NCBI GenBank assembly: GCA_014896635.1 | Contig: JADBKA010000062.1 | Location: forward strand, 1-23,082 | Direction of reading: 5' to 3' | Length of the DNA: 23,082 nucleotides | Source of the DNA: Ktedonobacteraceae bacterium | GTDB lineage: Bacteria; Chloroflexota; Ktedonobacteria; Ktedonobacterales; Ktedonobacteraceae | Shown: piece by piece, positions 2,682 to 22,562 of the stretch | Layout: each line of letters opens with the position of its first letter | How positions within the stretch are numbered: position 1 is the first letter of the stretch | Program-made: the position numbers and the translations under genes | The notes under the pieces: generated by a model | What the model saw: only the letters and a program-made list of their open reading frames with translations | What the model was told of the DNA's origin: nothing | The model's database searches: none

Positions 2682-2690
2682 TGTTATACT
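2682..2690 (+). promoter_or_regulatory. Extended -10 promoter upstream of the glmS ribozyme
   Basis: TGTTATACT fits an extended -10 element (TGn followed by TATACT at 2685-2690). No good -35 box sits 17 bp upstream: TTGTAA at 2667-2672 is only 12 bp away, which is usual for extended -10 promoters. The predicted start at about 2697 would leave a leader of about 27 nt before the ribozyme cleavage site. The remaining bases 2519-2680 after the protease gene show no gene and no clear terminator. Confidence 0.55.
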
Positions 2691-2721
2691 CCGTCTATAA
2701 ATCTGGTTGTTGTCGCGTCTA

Positions 2722-2872
2722 GTAGCGCATGGGCCGGGCCACAGGAGGGGTCACGGTTGACGAGGTGGAGGCTGTTCGGAGTCTATCAGCGGGGAGCCTC
2801 CAGGGGTGTTCACGCTCCTGAGAAGGGTGCGTCCAAAGACGTCCGGTAACGGGCGGGACAAAGCGCACCCGG
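2722..2872 (+). ncRNA. glmS self-cleaving ribozyme (glucosamine-6-phosphate riboswitch)
   Basis: The 5' leader of glmS contains the conserved glmS ribozyme core. The cleavage site fits A2724/G2725 in AGCGC, and the invariant string GTTGACGAGG lies at 2756-2765. P1 is formed by CCGGGCC pairing with the GGTC/CGG bases just before that string (one bulged A). P3 is a perfect 7-bp helix, 2767-2773 (GGAGGCT) with 2795-2801 (AGCCTCC), whose loop reads TCTATCAGCGGGG, matching the class consensus region. P3.1 is a small GGGGTG/CGCTCC hairpin near 2803-2818. P4 pairs 2825-2831 (GGGTGCG) with 2864-2870 (CGCACCC). In the known class, glucosamine-6-phosphate acts as a coenzyme for cleavage and the cut mRNA is degraded, giving feedback control of GlmS. 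Assignment is by visual match of core and helices. Confidence 0.93.
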
Positions 2873-2963
2873 TGATGTAGTTACAGCATGTCTTTCACCT
2901 TCATTTGATGGCGTAAGCCAGGCTTTTAACTACAAAAAAAGGACAGAAAGGGTACCCGTCCAC

Positions 2964-4832
2964 ATGTGCGGTATCATCGGCTACGTTGGTTCCGAAGGAA
3001 TCGATGTTACTTCTTTATTGCTTGATGGCCTGACCAGGCTTGAGTATCGCGGCTACGATTCAGCCGGCATCGCAGTATTGACCTCTAATGGTTCGCTCGA
3101 ACTTCACCGCCGCGCAGGCAAAATCGCCAATCTCGTTGCTACCGTCCTGAACGGTTCGCATCCCGGCGATGGTACGCTCGGCATCGGACACACGCGCTGG
3201 GCCACGCATGGTCGTCCGAGCGATAATAACGCTCATCCTCATCCCGACAGCACTGGTACATTGACGGTTGTACATAATGGCATCGTCGAGAATTATGCCG
3301 AGTTGCGTAGAGAACTGGAGCAACTCGGCCACAGCTTCCGCTCCGAGACAGATACCGAGGTGCTCGCCCACCTCGTCGAGCGCTACTACTTCCAGGAGGC
3401 GCAGCACGATCTGACCGAGGCAGTACGCATGGCGTTGCGGCGTGTTCACGGCACCTATGCCGTCGCGGTGGTCAGCAAAGAGCATCCCGATGTGCTGGTC
3501 GGCGCGCGGCACAGCAGTCCGCTGATTGTTGGTCTGGGCGAGCAGCAGCAGTATCTTGCCTCGGACATCCCCGCCATTCTCAAGCATACTCGCCGTATGC
3601 TCATCCTCGAAGAGGAAGAGGTCGTTACGCTGCGTCCTGGCAGCGTGGTCATCACAAAGCTCGATGGTACGCCGGTTGAGCGCGCTCCTCTCACGATTGA
3701 CTGGGATATCGAGGCGGCGGAAAAAGGCGGCTACCCGCATTTCGCGCTCAAAGAGATCAACGAGCAGCCAGAAGCTATTCGGCGCGCGCTGCTTGGCCGT
3801 GTCCACTCCGGCAAGCTCGATCTGACCGAACTGGAGCCGATGCGCCAGAAGGGACTGCTGGAGCAGGTGAAGCGCATCATCATCGTAGCTTGCGGCACAT
3901 CCTATCACGCCGGCCTGCTGGCGAAATATGCCTTCGAGAAGTGGGCGCGCATCCCGGTCGAGGCGATCACCGCCTCGGAGTTTCGCTACTGCGATCCGAT
4001 AGTCGGGCCGGAGACGCTCTGCATCGCCGTTACGCAGTCGGGCGAGACACTGGACACGCTGGTCGGCATTCGCCAGGCACGCGAGCACGGCGCGCCAGTT
4101 ATCGCCATCACCAATGTCGTCGCCAGCGCCATTACGCGGCTGGCCGATGCCACGCTCTACCTGCAAGCGGGACCGGAGATCTGTGTTGTTGCCACCAAGA
4201 CGTTTGTCAGTTCGGTCTGCGTGCTCTACCTGCTCGGCCTCTATCTCGCGCAGATGCGTGGGCAGCTCACGCCGGAGGAGGCAAGCGTCATTTTGATGGG
4301 CATGGAGCAATTGCCGGAGCAAATCCAGCGTATTCTTGATCACGCGGCCAGCGCCGAGGACGTGATCGAGCCGCTGGCGAAGCGCATGGCGAAGGTCAGC
4401 AGTATGATGTTTGTGGGACGTGGTGTCGGCTACCCGACGGCGCTGGAAGGTGCGCTCAAGCTCAAGGAAATCTCTTACATTCACGCGGAGGGCTTTCCGG
4501 CGGGCGAACTCAAGCATGGTTCTATCGCGCTGCTCGATCCCGATACGCCACTGGTCGGTGTTGCTACGGCCTCGCACGTCTATGAGAAGGTTGTGAGCAA
4601 CATTCAGGAAGTGCGGGCGCGTGATGCACATGTCATCGTTGTAGCGACCGAGGGCGACGAGAAGATTCGCCAGCATGCCCACGATGTGCTGTATGTCCCG
4701 GCGACGCTCGAAGTGCTCAGTCCGCTGCTGGCGATTGTGCCGTTGCAGCTCTTCGCCTATCACGTCGCTGTGGCGCGCGGTTGCAATGTTGATCAGCCGC
4801 GCAACCTGGCGAAATCGGTAACGGTGGAGTAG
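2964..4832 (+). CDS. glmS: Glutamine--fructose-6-phosphate aminotransferase (isomerizing)
   Basis: This cytosolic enzyme makes glucosamine-6-phosphate from fructose-6-phosphate and glutamine, the entry step to UDP-GlcNAc, peptidoglycan and other amino sugars. It has 622 residues, slightly above the usual 600-610. The N-terminal class II glutaminase domain (about 1-225) begins MCGIIGYVG, so Cys2 becomes the nucleophile after Met removal; RLEYRGYDSAG, GHTRWATHG and HNGIVENY are all present. Two SIS sugar-isomerase domains follow (ACGTSYHAG and TQSGETLDTL in the first, LKLKEISYIHAEGF and GELKHG in the second). The protein ends DQPRNLAKSVTVE, as expected. The start ATG has AAAGGG at 2947-2952. 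Its leader carries the ribozyme described separately, so expression should fall when the enzyme's own product accumulates. It is the only gene in its transcription unit. Confidence 0.98.
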   Translation: MCGIIGYVGSEGIDVTSLLLDGLTRLEYRGYDSAGIAVLTSNGSLELHRRAGKIANLVATVLNGSHPGDGTLGIGHTRWATHGRPSDNNAHPHPDSTGTLTVVHNGIVENYAELRRELEQLGHSFRSETDTEVLAHLVERYYFQEAQHDLTEAVRMALRRVHGTYAVAVVSKEHPDVLVGARHSSPLIVGLGEQQQYLASDIPAILKHTRRMLILEEEEVVTLRPGSVVITKLDGTPVERAPLTIDWDIEAAEKGGYPHFALKEINEQPEAIRRALLGRVHSGKLDLTELEPMRQKGLLEQVKRIIIVACGTSYHAGLLAKYAFEKWARIPVEAITASEFRYCDPIVGPETLCIAVTQSGETLDTLVGIRQAREHGAPVIAITNVVASAITRLADATLYLQAGPEICVVATKTFVSSVCVLYLLGLYLAQMRGQLTPEEASVILMGMEQLPEQIQRILDHAASAEDVIEPLAKRMAKVSSMMFVGRGVGYPTALEGALKLKEISYIHAEGFPAGELKHGSIALLDPDTPLVGVATASHVYEKVVSNIQEVRARDAHVIVVATEGDEKIRQHAHDVLYVPATLEVLSPLLAIVPLQLFAYHVAVARGCNVDQPRNLAKSVTVE

Positions 4833-20456: not shown

Positions 20457-20485
20457 ATTGTATCTTGCTCTGCCATGCCGGTCAA
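20457..20485 (-). promoter_or_regulatory. Sigma-70-type promoter of the HEAT-repeat gene
   Basis: On the minus strand TTGACC (complement of 20480-20485), a 17-bp spacer and TACAAT (complement of 20457-20462) form a near-consensus promoter. The predicted start near 20450 gives a leader of about 38 nt with GAGGG before the ATG at 20412. It is one of the best promoters in the window. Confidence 0.75.
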
Positions 20486-20586
20486 GGGCTTCTCGCTTTT
20501 CTTTTGGCAACAGTCATATACTGGAAGAGGAAGAGAGTGGGCAGGTAAACTGCCTGGCAAACCTGGAGGGCGATAGGTCAGGGGAT

Positions 20587-22041
20587 ATGTTGATCGAGAT
20601 GAGTTTACGCGGACTGATCAGACATATACAGCAATTGTTCGACTGCTACATTGTACAGGTGTCTCCCGGCTGTTCTGAACCGGCACTGCGCCATCCACTG
20701 CTTGCGCTACTGCCCTCCCCATCCACGCCTATGCCGGCGATCACAGCCGACAGAAACGGCATGCCAGGGCAGGCAGTACATATTTTGACTGACGAACGAC
20801 TCGCGGCTACGTGCGATATGGCGATCCAGACCGGTAGACTCTGGCGGCTTGAGCAACTGACATTGCACGATGGCCACGCGGGCTGCGCTGTAGCTGTCCC
20901 ACTACGACGTCCCGCCGGCATCCTGGGACTTCTGCTGCTGATCACCGATCAATCGGCAACGCTCGGTCCCGGCGAGTATATGATACTGGAACAGCTTACA
21001 GCACTTTTCTCACAGCGCCTGGAAGCGTACCTGCTGGAAAACAGTATCATTAATAGCGTCAATGAGTGGATCGTGCAGAGTGAGCAAGAGCAAAGAACAG
21101 GCGCCTGCGGCGACGGTACAAAGGAGCCAGCCAGCTTTGTCTCCGTCGTCAGCCACGAAATGCGCGTTCCTTTATCAGCGATCAAAGGGTATGCCGCTCT
21201 CTTGCAGCTATATGGAAACGTCAATGAGAACGAAAGCTGTAAAACGGGCCGGGAACTCGGCCAATCACTACAAGAGCAGGAAGGCATGACACCAGCTCGC
21301 CGCCAGCAGTATCTGAGCGCCATCTTGCAACAGGTTGATCACCTGGAAACGCTGGTCAACGATTTGCTGGATATAGAGCGTATCCGCACCGGACGAATCA
21401 CATTGCGTAGCACTAATGTCGATCTTCTCCCGCTCTGCTACGATGCCGCACGCTTGATCCAGGAACGTGAGGACCGGCAGCGTCCCGGTTACTATACTAT
21501 TCGCTGCCTGGCAAAACGCGAACCGCCACCAGTCCGCGCCGATGCTGCCCGCGTACGGCAGATTCTCATAAATCTGCTGGAAAACGCCGTAAAATATTCT
21601 CCCGCCGGGGGAGTGATCGAGATTCTTGTCGATTACGCCTGCCCGCATCACATACCGCTCCCACCAACGTCACCCAGCCAGCATGACACAGCCCGCTGTA
21701 GTAGCCAGAAGGGCTACGCTCTCCCCCCAACTTCTGTCTGCTATGCATCTATTACAATCTGCGATGAAGGCGTCGGCATCCCTGCACACCTGCAACCTTT
21801 TCTCTTTCAGGCTTTCACAAGAGCAGAGCACGCTTCTCTTAGAGACGTTCCCGGCACTGGCCTGGGACTCTACATCGCGCGCGAACTGGTCGAAGCTCAG
21901 AGTGGCAAAATCACCCTCTCCAACCGCGAAAAGCAGGGAACATGTGTGACGTTTACTCTACCGCTAGCGTGTTCCATTGCAGACTACCAGATGAACCGTT
22001 CTCGCCAGACCACTTGCGAAATACGGCACAGTTTGTTATAG
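20587..22041 (+). CDS. Sensor histidine kinase (GAF-HisKA-HATPase_c)
   Basis: 484 residues from ATG 20587. The frame is open from 20458, but that stretch overlaps the opposing promoter and does not look like protein. The start is uncertain: GGGG at 20581-20584 fits TTG 20590 better than ATG 20587. Residues about 10-150 resemble a GAF domain (GCAVAVPLRRPAGILGLLLL), so the protein is soluble with no membrane segment. HisKA carries phosphoacceptor His190 in VVSHEMRVPLSAIKGY. HATPase_c has the N-box NLLENAVKY (Asn333), DEGVGIP, and GTGLGLYIARELV. Two parts are longer than usual: the stretch between the two HisKA helices, and about 30 Pro/Ser/Cys-containing residues between the N-box and the DEGVGIP motif. 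It probably phosphorylates the receiver protein encoded 125 bp downstream. The sensed signal is unknown. Confidence 0.9.
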   Translation: MLIEMSLRGLIRHIQQLFDCYIVQVSPGCSEPALRHPLLALLPSPSTPMPAITADRNGMPGQAVHILTDERLAATCDMAIQTGRLWRLEQLTLHDGHAGCAVAVPLRRPAGILGLLLLITDQSATLGPGEYMILEQLTALFSQRLEAYLLENSIINSVNEWIVQSEQEQRTGACGDGTKEPASFVSVVSHEMRVPLSAIKGYAALLQLYGNVNENESCKTGRELGQSLQEQEGMTPARRQQYLSAILQQVDHLETLVNDLLDIERIRTGRITLRSTNVDLLPLCYDAARLIQEREDRQRPGYYTIRCLAKREPPPVRADAARVRQILINLLENAVKYSPAGGVIEILVDYACPHHIPLPPTSPSQHDTARCSSQKGYALPPTSVCYASITICDEGVGIPAHLQPFLFQAFTRAEHASLRDVPGTGLGLYIARELVEAQSGKITLSNREKQGTCVTFTLPLACSIADYQMNRSRQTTCEIRHSLL

Positions 22042-22042
22042 T
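22014..22042 (+). promoter_or_regulatory. Promoter of the receiver gene overlapping the kinase stop codon
   Basis: TTGCGA (22014-22019), a 17-bp spacer and TATAGT (22037-22042), preceded by TGt, form a strong sigma-70-type promoter with an extended -10. The kinase stop TAG (22039-22041) lies inside the -10 box. The predicted start near 22049 gives the receiver gene its own transcript with a leader of about 118 nt. Confidence 0.65.
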
Positions 22043-22082
22043 GTGCAAAGTCAGGGGATGGATAGAACACGATTCAGAACAC

Positions 22083-22120
22083 ACCGGGGAACCAGTGACA
22101 GAGAGAACTGGTGGACCGGT
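22083..22120 (+). terminator. Terminator/attenuator-like hairpin in the leader of the receiver gene
   Basis: ACCGG (22083-22087) pairs with CCGGT (22116-22120) and ACCAGT (22091-22096) with ACTGGT (22107-22112), separated by a symmetric GGA/GGA internal loop; the apical loop is 10 nt. It is followed by the pyrimidine-rich run ATTTCCTTCTCTTT. It could end the kinase transcript, or act as an attenuator in the leader made from the promoter at 22014-22042. The receiver Shine-Dalgarno is about 30 nt further on. Confidence 0.55.
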
Positions 22121-22166
22121 ATTTCCTTCTCTTTAATATACTGCCGAAGGGGGAAAGGGAAATATT

Positions 22167-22562
22167 ATGCGTGTAGGACTGCTGGAAGACGATATTGCCA
22201 CTCAGGAAATGCTCGTACTGGCACTTCAGGACGAAGGCCACACGGTGATCGTCTATGATGGAGCAGAGGCATGTCTGGATGCACTCAATGTGAAGGAGAC
22301 GAGGCAACTTCCTCTCCCCCTTGATCTCCTGATTGTTGATTGGCGCCTGGCCGGACCAATCTCAGGAATCGAAGTTATCCAACAGGTACGTGCCAATCCC
22401 CGCCTGCACGAGCTTCCCATTATTTTAACAACGGCTGTTGCATTGAATGATTCTGAGGAACTGCGCAATTTACAGACCCAGGCCGTCCTGCTGGAGAAGC
22501 CTTTTTCAGTTGATGAGATGAGCGCCCTGATCAAACAACTCTCCCAACCCCCTCTCCCGTAG
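22167..22562 (+). CDS. Single-domain response regulator (receiver protein)
   Basis: 131 residues that are a receiver domain and nothing more. The acidic pocket is Glu7-Asp8-Asp9, the phosphoacceptor is Asp58 in LLIVDWRL, the switch Thr is Thr88 or Thr89 in LTTA, and the conserved Lys is Lys111 in LEKPF, so all key residues are present. There is no DNA-binding or enzyme output domain. It must therefore act by protein binding or as a relay step, like CheY or Spo0F. GGAAAGGG lies 7 bp before the ATG at 22167. The histidine kinase upstream is the obvious partner, but the gene has its own promoter and leader hairpin, so its level may be set independently. Confidence 0.93.
   Translation: MRVGLLEDDIATQEMLVLALQDEGHTVIVYDGAEACLDALNVKETRQLPLPLDLLIVDWRLAGPISGIEVIQQVRANPRLHELPIILTTAVALNDSEELRNLQTQAVLLEKPFSVDEMSALIKQLSQPPLP

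Follow-up and report, generated by a model that had tools for sequence, protein, structure and literature searches.

A glmS ribozyme with an altered P2.2 helix in a Ktedonobacteria-like Chloroflexota bacterium, and related copies before other genes

The 23,082-nucleotide stretch of DNA analysed here (the window) contains, upstream of a predicted glmS gene, an element that a sequence-only reading had taken for a glmS ribozyme, and the questions raised by this locus are whether the element is a complete member of the class, how the departures of its core from the consensus can be accommodated, and how the class is distributed among related genomes and target genes. The covariance search with Rfam RF00234 (glmS ribozyme) that had been proposed as a check gave a match at 2713-2880 (+) that spans the entire model (1-167) and scores above the threshold (64.4 bits, gathering score 37, E 5.8e-13); this is the sole Rfam family at gathering thresholds within the 23 kb window. 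The match ends 83 nt before the ATG of glmS on the same strand, as expected of a leader element, and the product of 2964-4832 is a GlmS equivalog (NCBIfam TIGR01135, 799.7 bits, cut-off 418.05), so that the placement of a glmS ribozyme before glmS is borne out. The window copy has the A|GCG cleavage context (A2724|G2725), the GACGAGG core (2759-2765), which presumably includes the catalytic guanine, the P3.1 pseudoknot, P4 with a GNRA loop, and the double pseudoknot of P2.1 and P2.2, with three pairs in P2.1 and the C5-G53 pair of P2.2 missing. The segment 2713-2880 is therefore almost certainly a complete glmS ribozyme in the glmS leader of a Ktedonobacteria-like Chloroflexota bacterium, and a single transcript presumably runs across the ribozyme and glmS, whose Met-Cys start provides what we take to be the N-terminal cysteine nucleophile. 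A transcript from the putative -10-like element TGTTATACT would begin about 25 nt 5' of the cleavage site; a promoter consensus scan did not list this element and listed instead a 9-of-12 site at 2656-2685, its total being 2 sites against 1.2 +/- 1.0 expected. The features of the element are collected in the table.

Table. Features of the glmS ribozyme locus in the window. Residue numbers follow PMC7125110; as far as the P1 loop, adding 2724 to a residue number gives its window position.
Feature	Position	Strand	Basis
Putative extended -10-like element TGTTATACT	2682-2690	+	By-eye reading
glmS ribozyme, whole RF00234 match	2713-2880	+	64.4 bits, cut-off 37
Cleavage dinucleotide A(-1)/G1	2724-2725	+	Model alignment; numbering of PMC7125110
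P2.2 5' strand: C2 G3 C4, A5 (2729), U6 (2730), G7 (2731)	2726-2731	+	Alignment
P1 hairpin, bulged A2753	2732-2758	+	Covariation and fold
GACGAGG core; CGA 2761-2763 = P2.1 first strand	2759-2765	+	Invariant, 38 rows
P2 5' strand, partner 2795-2800	2768-2773	+	Two-sided changes, 5/6 pairs
UCG, P2.1 second strand	2776-2778	+	Paired in 38/38 rows, no variation
P2.2 3' strand: C52, A53 (2788), G54 C55 G56, then G57	2787-2792	+	Alignment
P2 3' strand	2795-2800	+	Covariation
P3 hairpin; UCAC 2810-2813 pairs in P3.1	2801-2820	+	Covariation and fold
P4 2825-2831/2864-2870; P4a 2840-2845/2850-2855	2825-2870	+	Covariation and fold
GUAA (GNRA) tetraloop of P4a	2846-2849	+	Covariation and fold
GUGA, P3.1 pseudoknot 3' strand	2872-2875	+	95.4% of cells paired; two-sided changes 2/4 pairs
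glmS, 622 aa, Met-Cys start	2964-4832	+	TIGR01135; Pfam amidotransferase domains and two SIS stretches

Several details of the sequence-only reading also hold: the core GUUGACGAGG lies at 2756-2765, the cleavage position A2724/G2725 agrees with the A2724-G2725-C-G-C2728 context and with the model alignment, and the bulged A reported in P1 is A2753. P3 and P4 had been called perfect; P4 consists of seven standard pairs, whereas P3 is continuous but holds two G-U pairs, so that in the Watson-Crick sense the word fits P4 only. The extent proposed for the element, 2722-2872, stops a few nucleotides too early, as the P3.1 pseudoknot has its 3' strand at 2872-2875. The helices had further been described as unusually GC-rich; the G+C of the ribozyme from G1 on (65.4%) lies within the range of its relatives (mean 62.3%, range 50.6-70.5%, 38 rows), and it is therefore not unusual in this respect. 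The suggestion of a useful thermostable variant falls with it: G+C is ordinary for the clade, the bulged A of P1 is no sign of stability, and nothing points to unusual thermostability, which was rejected on G+C. Elsewhere in the window, GGACAGAAAGGGTACCCGTCC at 2941-2961, just 5' of the glmS start codon, could fold into a small hairpin that would cover the probable ribosome-binding site; the strand opposite glmS contains an open frame of 567 codons (3060-4763, -), probably a by-product of codon usage; a histidine kinase is followed by a response-regulator-like gene (20458-22562); and further genes encode an NAD synthase, a UvrD helicase, a P-type ATPase and an X-Pro dipeptidyl-peptidase.

The host had been tentatively described as Ktedonobacteria-like, in agreement with a GlmS protein scan that covered one genome per species and yielded 50 loci. 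The GlmS of the window is 77-79% identical to those of four named Ktedonobacteria (Dictyobacter aurantiacus 79%, D. vulcani 78%, Ktedonosporobacter rubrisoli 79%, Ktedonospora formicarum 77%), 58% to that of a Chloroflexi MAG and at most 52% to those of Clostridia and others; judging from this one protein, the host is Ktedonobacteria-like.

The Ktedonobacterial set comprises 41 sites (40 genomes plus the window), 38 of which were aligned; two copies with core inserts (L061, L090) and one missed by the pattern (L089) stand outside the alignment. Standard pairs occupy 92.9% of the cells in the 38 sequences, compared to at most 44.6% in slid controls, and two-sided changes are found in 28 of the 46 pairs, compared to 20.8 +/- 1.7 in shuffles (0/500 as high). 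The P3.1 pseudoknot covaries in these rows. The three P2.1 pairs and, in P2.2, the pairs C2-G56, G3-C55, C4-G54 and G7-C52 are present in all 38 rows with no variation, so that covariation neither supports nor contradicts them. The cleavage site and the core letters, as well as G1, C2, U43, C44, G45 and G57, are invariant in all 38 aligned rows. The linker positions 42, 46 and 58-60 are U, G and GGA in 32 of the 40 parsed Ktedonobacterial rows, including the window. In L089 (1086-1256), P2.1 has C30-G43 where A30-U43 is usual (GACGCGG with GCG), so that both sides of a pair near the active site have changed in a natural copy; in L061 and L090 the P2.1 and P2.2 strands are separated by a long insert; and the L062 ribozyme (1492-1519) opens with two copies of the substrate strand AGCGCATG, 20 nt apart.

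The principal departure from the consensus is in P2.2. In the consensus core, residues 5 and 53 form the C5-G53 pair of this helix; all 41 Ktedonobacterial copies, the window included, have A5 and A53 (38 aligned rows invariant; 40 sites parsed automatically, L057 by eye). Residue 6 in these sites is U in 32, A in 8 and G in 1, residue 8 is G in all 41 (40 parsed, L057 by eye), and a U6-A53 pair is possible in 29 of the 38 aligned rows. In the window, 2726-2728 pairs with 2789-2791, and G7 (2731) pairs with C52 (2787). In the mutant scan of PMC7125110, changes at 5 or 53 of the consensus core cost about a thousandfold on average; the study nonetheless describes the 5-53 pair as poorly conserved in nature, proposes that bulges are able to shift towards the centre of P2.2, reads the same kind of bulge shift from double mutants, and presents A8G and A6U as general rescuers of other defects.

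The wider Chloroflexota set shows how residue 53 may find a partner. It consists of 92 sites, 88 of them with an assigned cleavage site (exceptions: L114, L141, L145 and L180) and 83 of them scored; L170 (GCGCUUG) and L181, L182, L183 and L185 (GCGCAACG, A53) are outside the residue counts. Overall, 128 of the 137 located sites were parsed automatically, and L130 (A53), L057, L158, L184 and L186 were read by eye. The states of the 83 scored sites are C5/G53 in 40, A5-U6/A53 in 34, [G/A]4-C5-U6/A53 in 7, and two single copies, A5-C6/A53 (L152) and U5-A6/A53 (L171). Outside the phylum, C5/G53 is found in eight named loci, and CCN/G53 in 50 of the 51 Bacillota-like sites, the one other triplet being probably a parse slip. 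U6 is present in 66 of the 76 scored A5/A53 sites (32/41 in Ktedonobacteria, 34/35 in other Chloroflexota) and in 45 of the 98 C5/G53 sites. The remaining scored A53 sites, with [G/A]4-C5-U6 (7) or U5-A6 (1), could also form a standard pair with A53. Altogether, a standard pair of residue 53 with residue 5 or 6 is possible in 172 of the 182 scored sites, the ten exceptions being nine Ktedonobacterial copies and L152; the four unscored copies with GCGCAACG, A53 and A6 would add to the exceptions. These same four copies (L181, L182, L183, L185) have GCGCAACG at the cleavage side together with very long core inserts.

In the window copy, then, A5 (2729) is probably bulged and U6 (2730) paired with A53 (2788), so that the bulge of P2.2 is shifted by one position. 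The alternative, that P2.2 keeps its usual register with an A5-A53 mismatch and residue 6 free, retains a substantial if lesser probability, given that nine of the 41 Ktedonobacterial copies keep A5/A53 with A6 or G6, that L152 has C6 and that the four unscored copies have A6; the preference for U6 in the company of A5/A53 and the eight other A53 copies that reach a possible standard pair by other routes argue against it. A strict rule by which U6 always pairs with A53 in Ktedonobacteria was rejected, because the pair cannot form in those nine copies. Across the phylum, P2.2 seems from these comparisons to occur in three registers, with the bulge at 6, 5 or 4, the window copy having the shifted bulge at 5; the exceptions and the shared descent of the sites, which makes the residue counts non-independent, leave this reading short of proof.

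The window ribozyme is expected to function in the ordinary way of its class. The GlmS product, glucosamine-6-phosphate, would bind the core built by P2.1 and P2.2 and act as a cofactor, self-cleavage would take place at A2724/G2725, and the resulting glmS message, which begins with a 5'-hydroxyl, would then be degraded, so that GlmS would be made only while its product is scarce. The window copy itself contributes its identity, position, covariation-backed structure, conserved core letters and place before glmS; ligand, cleavage and message decay are expected by analogy with the known class, as described in part in PMC7125110 and PMC2258182. That the RNA still cleaves and its altered linkers have changed the ligand or the affinity is quite improbable: positions 42, 46 and 58-60 do differ together in most parsed Ktedonobacterial rows, and the adjoining strand 43-45 belongs to the cofactor pocket according to PMC7125110, but a glmS-like start (NTGTGYGG) lies within 700 nt downstream in 39 of the 39 rows checked, and G1, C2, U43, C44, G45 and G57 are invariant in the 38 aligned rows, L089, outside that set, having G43. 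That the element is a degenerate remnant, or has retained its fold but lost cleavage, can be considered extremely unlikely, since the departures at 5, 53, 42, 46 and 58-60, two of them at positions where mutants of the consensus core are very slow (PMC7125110), are accompanied by an invariant cleavage site and core (38/38), two-sided changes in 28/46 pairs, and the published rescuers, G8 being fixed (41/41) and U6 frequent (32/41).

With respect to the spread of the class, RF00234 was detected upstream of glmS in 6 of the 11 loci submitted to Rfam (L001-L005 and L006, from a Clostridia MAG), and in all five of L001-L005 it precedes the glmS gene matched by the query. In the class that includes Dictyobacter (G001), 40 of the 47 genomes have a match above the cut-off, one copy each. 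The best GlmS match in the remaining seven is partial, at 27-36% identity, with extra fragments in G019 (24 residues at 88%) and G046 (two pieces within a single short open frame); none of the seven shows a full-length GlmS, and the absences are therefore best read as assembly gaps. In the Chloroflexota sample, 125 of the 400 genomes match at E<=0.001, 111 of them above the cut-off, and 40 of the 125 are the Ktedonobacterial ones; in the phylum of the Clostridia MAG, 262 of the 398 genomes are above the cut-off. These counts are lower bounds, as weak matches are missed under the stricter filters applied in Rfam runs on sets of over 40 genomes. The glmS ribozyme is thus widespread in Chloroflexota, and the earlier expectation that the window copy would extend the spread of the class holds only weakly: the Rfam model already detects the copy, and 125 sampled genomes of the phylum have one.

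Not all copies precede glmS. In five Chloroflexota genomes, a second ribozyme, with AGCG[G/A]CUG, lies before a glutamine synthetase gene instead; a pattern derived from these five is found in 7 of the 396 genomes in the class of G347, two of them additional to the original five, and the reversed pattern in none. All seven matches (L188-L193, L199) are located before glnA and apparently have the P2.2 bulge at 4. Four of the five tested products pass the GlnA cut-off, and the fifth, clipped by the locus end, scores 419.6 versus 429.15 bits. The core letters and helices are kept across the alignment of all seven copies, with 94.4% of cells paired and two-sided changes in 21 of the 51 pairs, compared to 11.0 +/- 1.9 in shuffles (0/500); further pair types in these seven copies are not above chance (35 versus 32.0 +/- 2.4, 72/500 shuffles), and in this alignment of related sequences P2.1, P2.2 and P3.1 are invariant. 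RF00234 scores three of the seven above the cut-off of 37 (42.9, 46.6, 47.7) and three below it (34.9, 35.0, and 23.7 with E 0.059), and gives no match to L199 even at E 10. In two of the seven glnA-linked cases (L198:1283-1458, L199:1297-1472), the cleavage site lies 42 and 28 nt downstream of the end of a 6S RNA gene on the same strand, and ribozyme cleavage might shape the 3' end of the 6S RNA there.

Other targets were found in further genomes. The Bacillota-like genome G790 has a plain glmS ribozyme (L238:1267-1419, -; 101.3 bits) with the cleavage site 193 nt before glnA (531.7 bits) and another copy before glmS; this link is confined to one genome because G790 is alone in its family and order among the genomes searched. 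In the family of G1118, the ribozyme precedes a fructose-1,6-bisphosphate aldolase/phosphatase gene in four of the five genomes (loci L240 and L258-L261, L240 and L261 being the same place) and glmS in the fifth, the second copies L263 and L264 being without gene assignment; one of the four proteins matches NF041126 (592 bits, cut-off 520), and the others are alike by eye. G1135 carries tandem ribozymes (L236:341-494 and 1998-2151), one before glmM (585.5 bits) and one before glmS. In the A5-C6/A53 copy (L152:972-1213, -), some 490 nt separate the cleavage site from a downstream gene resembling those of sugar aminotransferases, for which the best family is PseC (185.3 versus a cut-off of 423.5, the frame being clipped by the locus end). 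Among the 51 Bacillota-like sites, the targets are glmS in 47 (43 by motif, 4 by eye), and glmM, glnA, aldolase/phosphatase and an unassigned gene in one each; these come from 50 loci, the 30 best scores and 20 chosen among the matches listed, and the shares do not represent a rate because several genomes were chosen for having two copies. By motif, the 90 Chloroflexota sites comprise 60 before glmS, 4 before glnA, 1 with both and 25 without a motif, and most of these 25 show ATGTGYGG, the motif search start having been wrong for some loci.

Glutamine and fructose-6-phosphate, which GlmS takes as its two substrates, are made by GlnA and the phosphatase, and the product of GlmS is used by GlmM; this argues that the links to glnA, the phosphatase gene and glmM are functional. 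The gene contexts suggest a glucosamine-6-phosphate regulon that reaches both GlmS substrates. We lean, if only slightly, towards the combined view that these ribozymes govern glmS, glnA, the fructose-1,6-bisphosphate aldolase/phosphatase gene and glmM as such a regulon and that the P2.2 bulge moves from 6 in the consensus through 5 in the window lineage, a natural intermediate, to 4 in the glnA-linked Chloroflexota copies, a shift so far proposed from mutants only.

Many Chloroflexota copies outside Ktedonobacteria have a more elaborate core. Of the 80 parsed Chloroflexota sites outside Ktedonobacteria, 52 have a spacing of at least 39 between GACGAGG and the second strand of P2.1, which is usually about 17 and exactly 17 in the insert-free window copy. 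The insert folds into two hairpins in the glnA-linked copies, the same being judged by eye in the others, and is present in all parsed A53 copies outside Ktedonobacteria. A visible P4 is missing by eye in some copies (e.g., L160, L162, L169, L172, L174b and L177). Pairing of the leader just 5' of the cleavage site with the segment that follows P3 (helix 'P0') was tested in the 52 insert-bearing copies and gave a mean score of 14.5, compared to 12.57 +/- 0.46 with shuffled partners (maximum of 200 shuffles, 13.8), the helix being clear in only part of these copies. Possible helices of this kind with compensating changes are seen in L143, L144, L147, L150, L155, L157, L164, L169, L193 and others.

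Compared to the known RF00234 ribozymes of the Bacillus subtilis and Thermoanaerobacter tengcongensis types, the window copy shares the cleavage site, the GACGAGG core, the place before glmS, and P1, P2, P2.1, P3, P3.1 and P4 with its GNRA loop; it differs in having A5/A53 for C5-G53, U42, G46 and GGA at 58-60, and the bulged A in P1. A survey of 2011 reportedly described Deinococcus-Thermus variants of the glmS ribozyme with extra core stems, which, by description rather than by sequence comparison, resemble the extra core hairpins of many non-Ktedonobacterial Chloroflexota copies, the window copy differing from them in its lack of an insert. The same survey is said to have placed all but two glmS ribozymes before glmS, and these two exceptions may be of the kinds reported here. 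The glutamine riboswitch glnA (Rfam), known from cyanobacteria, likewise acts on glutamine synthetase genes; it is an unrelated RNA, whereas the glnA-linked ribozymes have the glmS core and cleavage site. PMC3766115 describes 17 RNA motif families in five Chloroflexi genomes, its available part leaving glmS membership unstated. Within the literature covered, in part at the level of partial texts and with the 2011 class survey outside its scope, no mention of Chloroflexota glmS ribozymes was found, nor, among the matches listed, any of glnA- or glmM-linked ones, and claims of novelty are provisional because that survey lies outside this coverage. The useful novelty is, provisionally, structural, namely a lineage form with an altered P2.2.

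The A5/A53 state, found in all of the copies examined in the clade (41/41), concerns a pair at which single mutations cripple the consensus ribozyme in the laboratory, and the A5/A53 copies together with those that seem to have the bulge at 4 make the register-shift idea of the 2020 scan (PMC7125110) testable with natural RNAs. The wider pattern of registers and additional targets is more interesting than the window copy itself. If the links to glnA and to the aldolase/phosphatase gene hold, a small regulon centred on the GlmS reaction would be under the control of a ribozyme whose cofactor is a metabolite. Glucosamine-6-phosphate inhibits the glutamine synthetase of enteric bacteria, and control of glnA by the same metabolite at the RNA level would be a striking parallel to this inhibition of the enzyme.
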